NCBI GenBank assembly: GCA_025936995.1 | Contig: JAICSH010000001.1 | Location: 1-64,000, forward strand | DNA: 64,000 nucleotides | Direction of reading: 5' to 3' | From: Thermoleophilia bacterium | GTDB taxonomy: Bacteria > Actinomycetota > Thermoleophilia > Gaiellales > Gaiellaceae | Shown here: positions 5,694-8,530 of the stretch, in pieces | How the letters are laid out: every line of letters starts with the position of its first letter | How positions within the stretch are numbered: the stretch's first letter is position 1 | Made by a program: the position numbers and the translations under genes | Notes under the pieces: model-generated | The model's database searches: none | Seen by the model: only the letters and a program-made list of their open reading frames with translations | Told to the model about the DNA's origin: nothing

Positions 5694-6925
5694 TCCCGAT
5701 CCCGCTCGCCGAAGTGCGGGCGCTCTCGCTGGGGAGACTCGAGGGCGACGCGGAGTCGGTCACCGGCGTGGACGTCGACTCGCGCCGGATCCGGCCGGGA
5801 GACCTGTTCGTCGCGGTCCAGAGCGGCGAGGCGTTCCTCGACGATGCTCGCCGGCGCGGCGCCGCGGCGACGCTCGTCCCCGACGACGCGCATGCCGCGC
5901 TCGCGGCGCTGGGGAGTGCCGTCCGCGCCCGCAGCGATGCTCGCGTCGTGGCGATCACCGGCTCGGTCGGCAAGACGTCGACGAAGGACATCCTCGCGGC
6001 TCTCCTGCGCCCACGCTTCCGCACCGTTGCGGCGCCCGACGGCTTCAACAACGAGATCGGCCTGCCACTCACGCTCTGCCGGATCGAGCCCGAGACAGAG
6101 GTCGTCGTGACCGAGATGGCGATGCGCGGAGCCGGCCAGATCCGTGATCTCGCACGAGTTGCGCGGCCGCATCTCGGGGTGATCACGGCGATCGCGCCGG
6201 TTCATCTCGAGCAGCTCGGCAGCCTCGAGAACATCGCGCGCGCGAAGGCCGAGCTCCTCGAAGAGCTTCCCGCGGGCGCCGTCGCGGTTCTGCCCGAGGA
6301 CGCCCCCGAGCTTGAGCCGTTCGTACCCGACGGCCTCGACGTGCGCCGCTTCCCTGCGCCGGCGGCGGAGGTCCGCGACGGCCGCACGCACCTCCGGTGG
6401 CACGGCCGCGACGTCGCCTTCGGATTTACGGCGCGGCACCAGGCAGCCAACGCGGCGGCGGCTCTGGCCGCGGCCGAGGCGCTCGGGGTCGACCCGCCGG
6501 ACGAGCCCGTGGAAGTGACCTTCTCCCGCCTGCGCTCGCAGGAGGTGGAGCTGCCCGGTGGCGGCGTGCTGATCAATGACGCGTGGAATGCGAACCCGGT
6601 GGCGATGCGGGCGGCGCTCGCGCACCTCCGCGATCGCGCCGACGGGCGCAGGACCGTCGCGATCCTCGGCGAGATGACGGAGCTCGGTCCGGAGGCCCCC
6701 GGCTACCACCGCGAGATCGCAGGCGAAGCCGAGGGGATCGACGTCGTGCTGGGAGTGGGCGAGCTCGCCCGCGAGTATCGGCCGGACGAGTGGACGCGCA
6801 CCGCGGCGGAGGCGGCTGCGGCCGTGCGCGGGCTCGTTCGCCCGGGAGACGCCGTCCTCGTCAAAGGATCGCGGGTGGTCGGCCTGGAGGCCGTGGTCGA
6901 GGCGCTGCAGGAGCCGCGGCCGTGA
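5690..6925 (+). CDS. murF: UDP-MurNAc-tripeptide--D-Ala-D-Ala ligase MurF
   Basis: Ligase that adds D-Ala-D-Ala to complete the UDP-MurNAc pentapeptide; about 411 residues. Motifs are GSVGKTSTKDILAALL (ATP loop), NNEIGLPLTLCR, AIAPVHLEQLG and DAWNANPVAMRAAL, all typical of MurF. No ATG, GTG or TTG lies near the expected N terminus. The frame runs back through LIPIPLAEVRAL, and CTG at 5690 overlaps the murE stop as CTGA, exactly like the other coupled overlaps here, so I propose a CTG start. The next conventional codon, GTG at 5714, would remove part of the conserved N-terminal strand. The end overlaps mraY. Confidence 0.92.
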   Translation: MIPIPLAEVRALSLGRLEGDAESVTGVDVDSRRIRPGDLFVAVQSGEAFLDDARRRGAAATLVPDDAHAALAALGSAVRARSDARVVAITGSVGKTSTKDILAALLRPRFRTVAAPDGFNNEIGLPLTLCRIEPETEVVVTEMAMRGAGQIRDLARVARPHLGVITAIAPVHLEQLGSLENIARAKAELLEELPAGAVAVLPEDAPELEPFVPDGLDVRRFPAPAAEVRDGRTHLRWHGRDVAFGFTARHQAANAAAALAAAEALGVDPPDEPVEVTFSRLRSQEVELPGGGVLINDAWNANPVAMRAALAHLRDRADGRRTVAILGEMTELGPEAPGYHREIAGEAEGIDVVLGVGELAREYRPDEWTRTAAEAAAAVRGLVRPGDAVLVKGSRVVGLEAVVEALQEPRP

Positions 6926-7929
6926 TCCGCGTCCTCATCGCGGCGGCGGTCGGGCTCGGAGTCTCGATCGTCATGGGGCCCCGGTTCATCGACTTCCTGC
7001 GGCGCAACGAGTTCGGCCAGCAGATTCGTGAGGATGGGCCGGAGCACCACATCGTGAAGCAGGGGACGCCGACGATGGGCGGGCTGATGATCCTGTTCGC
7101 GGCGAGCATCGCCTTTTTTCCGGTCACGCATTTCCGGCTCCAGGCGCTGACCGTCCTGTTCGCCGCGCTCGCATGCGGTGCGATCGGCTTCCTCGACGAC
7201 TTCATCAAGCTCACGCACAGGCGGTCGCTCGGGTTGTCGGGGCGCTGGAAGCTCGTGCTCCTCGCCGGTGTCACGCTGGTGGTCGCGATCGTCGCCCGCC
7301 ACCTCCATCTGAGCACGGACGTCTACATCCCGGTGATCGACGTCACCGTGCCGCTGTCGTACGGCTGGTACGTGTTCCTCTTCCTCGTGATCGGCGGCGC
7401 CGCGAACGGGACGAACCTCGCCGACGGAGTCGACGGTCTCGGCGCGGGGACGGCGATCATCGCGCTGTTCACCTTCATGGCGATGAACGTCGTCTCGTAC
7501 GTCCGGTCCGGACACGTCGGCCACCGCAACCTGACGAAGCTCGATCTCGCCATCGTCGGCGCTGCGCTCATCGGAGCCGCCGTCGGCTTCCTCTGGTTCA
7601 ACGCGTTCCCGGCCGAGGTCTTCATGGGCGACACGGGCTCGATGGCCTTCGGAGGAGCGCTCGCGGGGTTCGCAATCATGATGAAGGTCGAGCTGCTCCT
7701 GCTCCTGATCGGCGGGATCTTCGTGATCGAGGCGCTCTCCGTGATGATCCAGGTCTTCACGTTCAAGTACCTCGGGCGACGCGTCTTCCTCATGGCGCCG
7801 ATCCACCACCACTTCGAGATGAAGGCGTGGTCCGAGACGAAGATCACCGTACGGTTCTGGATCGTCGCCGGGCTGCTGTGCGCGGTCGGCTTCGCGCTCT
7901 ACTACCGCTACTACTTCGGTCAGCGATGA
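6922..7929 (+). CDS. mraY: Phospho-MurNAc-pentapeptide transferase MraY
   Basis: Integral membrane enzyme that moves phospho-MurNAc-pentapeptide onto undecaprenyl phosphate to make lipid I; 335 residues with about ten membrane segments. Conserved pieces include KQGTPTMGG, FLDDFIKL with the catalytic aspartates, NLADGVDGL, FMGDTGSMAFGG and the magnesium/uridine-site histidines APIHHHFEMK. The GTG start overlaps the murF stop (GTGA) and the stop overlaps the next gene (ATGA), so the gene is embedded in a coupled operon. Confidence 0.96.
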   Translation: MIRVLIAAAVGLGVSIVMGPRFIDFLRRNEFGQQIREDGPEHHIVKQGTPTMGGLMILFAASIAFFPVTHFRLQALTVLFAALACGAIGFLDDFIKLTHRRSLGLSGRWKLVLLAGVTLVVAIVARHLHLSTDVYIPVIDVTVPLSYGWYVFLFLVIGGAANGTNLADGVDGLGAGTAIIALFTFMAMNVVSYVRSGHVGHRNLTKLDLAIVGAALIGAAVGFLWFNAFPAEVFMGDTGSMAFGGALAGFAIMMKVELLLLLIGGIFVIEALSVMIQVFTFKYLGRRVFLMAPIHHHFEMKAWSETKITVRFWIVAGLLCAVGFALYYRYYFGQR

Positions 7930-8405
7930 GCTCGGGTCCGACGGAGGTGGAGCTGGCGTTGCTCGACGCGGCTCAGCTGCAGCCGGAGGAGGCTGTGCTC
8001 GTGCTCGGCGGCGGGTCGCTCGCGCTCGGCGCCCACGACCGAGTCGGCGACGGCTGGGTCTACGTCGTCCGGTCCCAGATCGACGAGCTCGAGGAGTTGC
8101 TCTGCGAGGCGCATGCAGTGGGGGCGAGCGGCGTGGCGTACCTCGTCGGCGACACCCCCGTGCTGCCGCTTCCGGACGACGCCGTCGCGGCCGCCGTCGG
8201 GCGGATCGTAACGGACGACGGGGCGCTCGGGGCTGCCGTCGAGGAGCTCGCGCGCGTGCTCTCGGCCGGCGGCCGCGTCTCGCTCGCGGAGCCGGACTCC
8301 GCAGCGGGCGACGAGCTCGCGCGCTTCCTCGAGGCGGCGGGATTCGAGGGCGTGGACGTGGCTCGAGCCGGTGAGCAGGCCGTCGTGAGCGGCCGGCTCC
8401 GCTGA
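7926..8405 (+). CDS. Methyltransferase-fold protein of unknown function in the dcw cluster
   Basis: A 159-residue protein whose pattern resembles the second half of a class I SAM methyltransferase: VLVLGGGSLALG near residue 24, the acidic/proline segment PVLPLPDDAVAAAVG near 78, the helix and turn ELARVLSAGGRVSLAEP near 107, and a final AAGFEGVDV strand. It is shorter than a full methyltransferase and the glycine-rich loop is not canonical, so it may bind SAM weakly or not at all. It overlaps mraY by ATGA and precedes murD after a 125-base gap. No such gene belongs to the classical dcw set; the function is unknown. Confidence 0.75.
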   Translation: MSSGPTEVELALLDAAQLQPEEAVLVLGGGSLALGAHDRVGDGWVYVVRSQIDELEELLCEAHAVGASGVAYLVGDTPVLPLPDDAVAAAVGRIVTDDGALGAAVEELARVLSAGGRVSLAEPDSAAGDELARFLEAAGFEGVDVARAGEQAVVSGRLR

Positions 8406-8502
8406 GGACCCGGGAGCCGGACGGCGAATACGTACCGCATCCTCCACGAAGCCTCCACACCGCTGTCACAACCGCGCGCGTACGCTGACCTCAGGGGACC
8501 TG

Positions 8503-8524
8503 CGCCCCCCATTGGGGGGGAGCG
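8503..8524 (+). promoter_or_regulatory. GC hairpin covering the murD ribosome-binding region
   Basis: CGC plus a C run (8503-8510) can pair with a G run plus GCG (8514-8524) around an ATT loop, with one bulged A. The G-rich arm GGGGGAG is also the only Shine-Dalgarno-like sequence before the murD GTG at 8531. The hairpin could therefore hide the ribosome site, or act as a weak terminator before the TTT that follows. This is the only non-overlapping junction between murE and ftsQ. The 8406-8502 stretch upstream holds no gene; TACGCT at 8481-8486 is a possible -10. Confidence 0.45.
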
Positions 8525-8530
8525 TTTGCC

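Follow-up and report, generated by a model that had tools for sequence, protein, structure and literature searches.

Introduction

METTL14, which stands beside METTL3, and the N-terminal domain of RsmC are pseudo-methyltransferases that serve as non-catalytic partners. The protein described here, encoded between mraY and murD and called below the slot protein, resembles them in its methyltransferase descent, in the loss of the cofactor motif and in the conservation of its sequence. METTL14 and the RsmC domain, however, are whole domains next to an active methyltransferase, whereas the slot protein has MraY and MurD as neighbours, and its domain has been cut to 80 aa in separate lineages. RsmH/MraW is likewise encoded by a methyltransferase gene of the dcw cluster, but belongs to another family and occupies another place in the cluster. 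Full-length relatives of the slot protein match the class I methyltransferases of the Methyltransf_11 and Methyltransf_25 families (UbiE/MenG- and arsenite-methyltransferase-like). Compared to these enzymes, the protein of the window (the whole stretch of 64,000 nucleotides analysed) scores below cut-off and lacks motif I, the acidic residue, the cap, the insertion and the C-terminal parts. Among the titles and beginnings of abstracts covered by our literature search, from which subscription papers were mostly absent, no paper describing the slot gene was found.

Results

The mraY-murD junction in the window

The window carries, in order, mraW/RsmH (65-1045, PF01795, 3e-109), a penicillin-binding transpeptidase gene, a Mur ligase gene, mraY, the slot gene and murD, followed by ftsW, murG, a second Mur ligase gene, murB and, later, ftsZ. 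The Mur ligase before mraY was taken as murF from its position, and the second one as murC; the segment 3134-4375, tried as murE, gave no Pfam match at 1e-5. Among named genomes, those with the most similar mraY genes are mostly MAGs of Thermoleophilia or other actinobacteria, Candidatus Gaiellasilicea being one, which points to Thermoleophilia as the class of the window. The upstream murF frame and the mraY start share GTGA, as read in the sequence, and mraY itself matches PF00953 at 8e-30. The features of the junction are:

6922 to 7929, forward strand: mraY, GTG start, stop TGA at 7927-7929, Pfam Glycos_transf_4 and MraY_sig1
7926 to 7929, forward strand: ATGA overlap, slot gene start upon the mraY stop, read in the sequence
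7926 to 8405, forward strand: slot gene, ATG start at 7926, putative pseudo-methyltransferase of the "half" type, 159 aa
8531 to 9802, forward strand: murD, GTG start 125 nt past the end of the slot gene, Pfam Mur_ligase_M at 9e-25

The frame 7926-8405, its ATGA coupling to mraY and its position between mraY and murD were thus found as an earlier note on this DNA had described them. The same note held that the product belongs to no described dcw protein, and this agrees with our results: the RsmH/MraW gene is a separate one, and no PF01795 match was found in the slot protein by Pfam scan.

Distribution of the slot gene

Within the family of the window, mraY was detected in 92 of 103 genomes, and the regions 3′ of it were taken for 91 of them, G068 being left out because mraY lies at a contig edge. 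MurD was readable at 88 of these 91 junctions (all except G110, G112 and G083). A methyltransferase-derived slot gene was present at 22 of the 91, in four genera: in all 13 mraY-bearing genomes of g1, the genus of the window, in 7 of the 8 g6 genomes, and in G054 (g19) and G116 (g40). In one more g1 genome, G004, a fragment of the half type lies at the end of a contig, with no mraY. In most of the family, mraY and murD abut or overlap and the slot gene is absent, as it also is from G049, a g6 genome; it is therefore not required for mraY and murD function in general. Orthologues always next to mraY had been proposed as a check in the earlier note: the family relatives do adjoin mraY, but the gene is not general in the family.

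Outside the family, the slot gene was found in none of the 7 readable mraY loci from other families of the order (nine loci taken; the order-level junction set omits G027, G029, G030, G033, G038 and G039). Among 80 named loci across bacteria, 77 show murD, and gaps longer than 140 nt occur there on three contigs only, apparently the already counted G018, G079 and G054. No additional relatives of the slot protein were found on viral contigs.

Other sequences also occupy this junction. In g24 (L193, L194, L190, L201) the slot holds an EamA/DMT-like transporter frame, named by eye, and the mraY-murD junction thus appears to be a repeated insertion site in the family. In the two related genomes G091 (L171) and G100 (L179) the gap is filled by long minus-strand open frames of 236-258 aa, opposite in direction to the cluster, and a few further genomes have other inserts.

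Occupation of the slot by other genes, such as the g24 transporter frame, raises the question of whether the protein is a functional pseudo-methyltransferase unrelated to cell-wall precursors, for which the junction simply offers a handy site with good expression. Non-slot members of the parent subfamily do lie in unrelated neighbourhoods. We nevertheless regard this explanation as improbable, as the start of the slot gene has kept its overlap with the mraY stop (NTGA) in 20 of 22 cases, and all 21 matches of an order-wide search with a profile of the shortest forms (E ≤ 3e-10) sit in the mraY-murD slot.

Coupling to mraY and murD

The two exceptions to the overlap with mraY are G012, where the gene starts 8 nt off, and G116, where it starts 167 nt downstream. 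The overlap reads ATGA or GTGA in g1, and CTGA in 8 of 8 genes of g6 and g19. An apparent CTG start was accordingly read in these eight slot genes (L049, L152-L154, L159, L162, L165, L206), and murD of G049 and G044 seemingly starts at a CTG of the same kind. In the short gene of G046, neither ATG, GTG nor TTG occurs in the entire frame, so that its translation, if any, would need a restart at CTG or another non-standard codon. Such CTG starts upon the mraY stop hint that translation may be re-initiated at a non-standard codon.

At the other end, all eight g6 and g40 slot genes have a stop that overlaps the murD start, while in g1, the window included, about 20-200 nt separate the slot gene from murD. 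Given this gap, and the promoter-like linker of the window, the overlap in g1 is with mraY only. The linker has the following features:

8406 to 8530, forward strand: linker, 125 nt, of equal length in five g1 genomes
8481 to 8488, forward strand: TACGCTGA, conserved −10-like element before murD
8502 to 8524, forward strand: C-run/G-run inverted repeat that covers the likely murD ribosome site

These elements are recognisable in G013, G009, G005 and G054; G024, which has no slot gene, shows them too when read by eye (loci compared: window 8406-8530, L034-L039, L045 and L206). In the linker hairpin no base pair was changed on both sides, and z-scores were 0.11 and −1.19, so that folding statistics lend the hairpin no support. 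Rfam returned nothing at gathering score for the linker; a minus-strand hit to the Glutamine-II model (17.1 bits, compared to a required 33) was taken as chance.

A methyltransferase in three sizes

The 22 slot proteins fall into 5 full or near-full forms (224-283 aa), 9 halves (138-159 aa) and 8 minis (80-86 aa):

Full forms: G013 (283 aa), G054 (278), G048 (274), G005 (271), and G009 (224), with parts already missing
Half forms of g1: G000 (the window), G014, G011, G006 and G007, 156-159 aa
Half forms of g6: G020, G053, G050 and G052, 138-152 aa
Mini forms: G003, G008, G015, G002 and G012 (83-85 aa), G051 (86), G046 (82) and G116 (80), ending in ARVLR, ARVTR or ARVKAP, plus or minus one residue

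The window protein had been read in the earlier note as a degenerate class I methyltransferase, and alignment, Pfam and profile comparisons bear this out. The motif quoted there, ELARVLSAGGRVSLAEP, was found in the protein and lines up with the RVLRPGGR segment of intact methyltransferases. By itself the window protein remains below the Pfam cut-off (best match 0.015, 16.4 bits, cut-off 27), and two of four minis scanned had no Pfam match. The full slot relatives match PF08241 (Methyltransf_11) at 6e-15 to 2e-19, as well as NCBIfam arsenite-methyltransferase and UbiE models, with no function named. Their profile retrieved 54 solved chains at E ≤ 0.001, the best being phosphomethylethanolamine N-methyltransferase 5wp5 (3.4e-16), and the profile of the minis matched that of the full forms with an hhalign E of 1.2e-16. 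In a 45-row tree, which holds 23 of 24 paralogues (one, identical in sequence to another, was dropped), the g1 halves are nested within the full slot forms (G054, then G005, G013 and G009) with bootstraps of 90-100, and the G051 mini is nested among the g6 halves. In a class-wide search of 299 genomes, the five full forms scored 331-466 bits with their own profile and the next non-slot relatives 197 at most; three of these non-slot relatives lie in unrelated neighbourhoods, with genes recognised by eye. By these comparisons, the slot gene descends from a full-length class I methyltransferase, which relatives still carry between mraY and murD.

Homology to the full forms also supports a Rossmann-like fold of the slot protein. 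AlphaFold2 predictions from two-row alignments were poor (pLDDT 53.9 and pTM 0.37 for the window protein aligned to a single relative, pLDDT 38.7 for the full G054 relative) because the alignments were shallow, and a Foldseek search with the window model at pLDDT 53.9 gave no match at E ≤ 0.001.

In the 22-row alignment, the N-terminal cap, the substrate-side insertion, the stretch after strand 5 and a large part of the C-terminus are missing from the shortened forms; halves of both genera retain a short C-terminal strand and tail. Positions of interest in the window, all read from the alignment, are:

7995 to 8021, forward strand: broken glycine-rich motif I, VLVLGGGSL, residues 24-32
8070 to 8072, forward strand: Arg49, Asp in all five full slot methyltransferases, at the acidic position ending strand 2
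8139 to 8177, forward strand: YLVGDTPVLPLPD, most conserved segment, residues 72-84
8253 to 8294, forward strand: RVLSAGGRVSLAEP, part of the motif quoted in the earlier note, where the minis end

Motif I of the window protein has lost DxGxGxG, and its loop is 2 residues shorter than in the intact slot methyltransferases. Residues L55, G75, P81, L82, D84, R110 and V111 (window numbering) are invariant in all 22 proteins. An intact SAM site was what the earlier note had named as evidence against its reading: the window protein has none, but four slot relatives keep an intact motif I. In the near-full G009 form (L038:2502-3173) motif I is already broken (ALDAGAG) and the C-terminal part is shorter, but the loop keeps its full length and the acidic residue is still there; this combination suggests that trimming started before the glycine loop was shortened.

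Could the shortened proteins still be SAM enzymes, with a changed cofactor site and a substrate that is new or more restricted? Their best conserved segment, LPLPD, presumably forms the adenine side of the SAM pocket, as in class I enzymes, and most minis and the g6 halves keep the acidic residue after strand 2. Against this, none of the 17 shortened forms has a complete DxGxGxG, which 4 of 5 full forms do have, the glycine loop is 1-3 residues shorter in all 17, and all five g1 halves have Arg for Asp at the end of strand 2, a position which, from the class I motifs, we take to be the acidic SAM-binding residue; the substrate-side insertion is also gone, together with a large part of the C-terminus. 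We consider a remaining SAM enzyme very unlikely. SAM binding would have been lost in the shortened forms, and the shortened slot protein is very likely not an enzyme.

Coding and selection

The frame of the slot gene is open far 5′ (ORF 7173-8405, 410 aa), and in such G+C-rich DNA openness by itself is no proof of coding. The slot frames, including those opening far upstream, were read directly, and the homologue search used the sense frame only. Among the five g1 half genomes, changes at third positions exceed those at first and second positions (12, 20 and 60 for G000-G014). Under a codon model, omega was 0.083 for the g1 half genes (5 genomes; likelihood-ratio test against omega = 1, 288; 0.073 with 4 of the 5 genomes), 0.145 for the g6 half genes (4 genomes, 130) and 0.049 for the g1 mini genes (5 genomes, 185). 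For mraY, the matching sets gave 0.039, 0.018 and 0.046. Pairwise and tree-based codon analyses were concordant. The full-form value, 0.016, was set aside since these sequences are too diverged. As controls, the linker yielded omegas of 0.77, 1.09 and 1.74, the wrong forward frames 1.4 to 7.4, and the antisense frames 0.85, 0.115 and 7.9, the value of 0.115 being due to a frame that has its third positions in common with the sense frame. In the MraY+MurD tree the g1 mini clade (95/94) and the g1 half clade (95/86) are monophyletic, so that omega measures selection after the shortening, unless members were shortened individually. As judged by this comparison among relatives, the slot ORF is a real coding gene, and its shortened versions are under strong purifying selection.

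A series that runs stepwise from full to half, mini and absent, even inside g6, is also what a methyltransferase pseudogene in decay, not erased so far, would leave behind. This explanation is extremely unlikely: the 22 curated slot frames contain no frame break, and purifying selection acts within clades that were already shortened (288, 185 and 130 in the tests above), so that the gene would not be a pseudogene.

The frame might otherwise be kept solely to carry ribosomes from mraY to murD, the protein being a by-product. Deletions have preserved the frame, and where the gene starts on the mraY stop (g6) and ends on the murD start (g6 and g40), a frameshift would harm murD. Selection at the amino-acid level (omega 0.05-0.15, with third positions free) argues against such a role, as do the many relatives, G049 for example, in which mraY and murD overlap without any spacer, and the g1 genes, which stop short of murD. 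A pure coupling role is thus unlikely. Descent from an enzyme family, loss of the cofactor signature and conservation of the protein afterwards, which are among the marks of a pseudoenzyme, are apparent in the shortened sequences.

Parallel reduction

On trees of MraY and MurD (FastTree with 96 rows, IQ-TREE with 44 of these), 2 changes to the half form and 4 to the mini form were counted, all forced by supported branches. Grouping of the minis in one clade was rejected (p-AU 1.2e-92, IQ-TREE). The half form arises at least twice on them and the mini in four places, of which G116 could be a transfer: its mini resembles those of g1, with which it has ELADPR in common, and joins them on a long branch in the 45-row tree. 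Three clear independent minis would then be left, the g1 clade, G051 and G046. The G051 mini falls together with the G050 half in the 45-row tree, but on the MraY+MurD tree the genome of G051 clusters with that of G048, which has a full form; given this conflict, recombination between slots is possible.

A single origin of the slot genes relative to other methyltransferases was neither shown nor rejected by the 45-row tree (3 changes, 1 forced). Either one gain was followed by many losses, or separate gains took place in g1/g19, g6 and g40.

Discussion

The explanation that we favour, with moderate confidence, is that a captured methyltransferase was repeatedly reduced and then kept by selection, most likely for a non-catalytic role as partner or regulator of MraY, MurD or both. 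At the start, an ordinary class I SAM-dependent methyltransferase would have entered the mraY-murD junction in this family of Thermoleophilia. Several lineages then shed most of the N-terminal cap, the substrate-side insertion, the glycine loop for SAM and a large part of the C-terminus. What remains is a presumably Rossmann-like half, as in the window, or a mini-protein of about 80 aa, in either case with an amino-acid sequence under strong purifying selection. From the conserved overlap, ribosomes ending MraY probably re-start at the overlapping stop, and the slot protein would thereby be made beside MraY and in proportion to it. Most likely this small protein does its work without catalysing a reaction, as partner or regulator to MraY, MurD or both. 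We infer a role at the MraY/MurD step from position and overlap.

More tentatively, and with less confidence than we place in the favoured explanation, the product may be a non-catalytic module of about 80 aa that arose by repeated, parallel conversion and is translated together with MraY, in some genera with MurD too. It would have kept an interaction surface, discarded the enzyme, and now serve the lipid I step as a dedicated partner or throttle.

The mraY-murD junction belongs to the more constant portions of the cell-wall gene cluster in bacteria, and MraY is a known antibacterial target, of which the slot protein may be a partner. Shedding of the enzyme in separate lineages, with the remainder conserved, would amount to a natural experiment in turning an enzyme into a pure interaction module, in which graded living intermediates reveal the part retained, the LPLPD segment.
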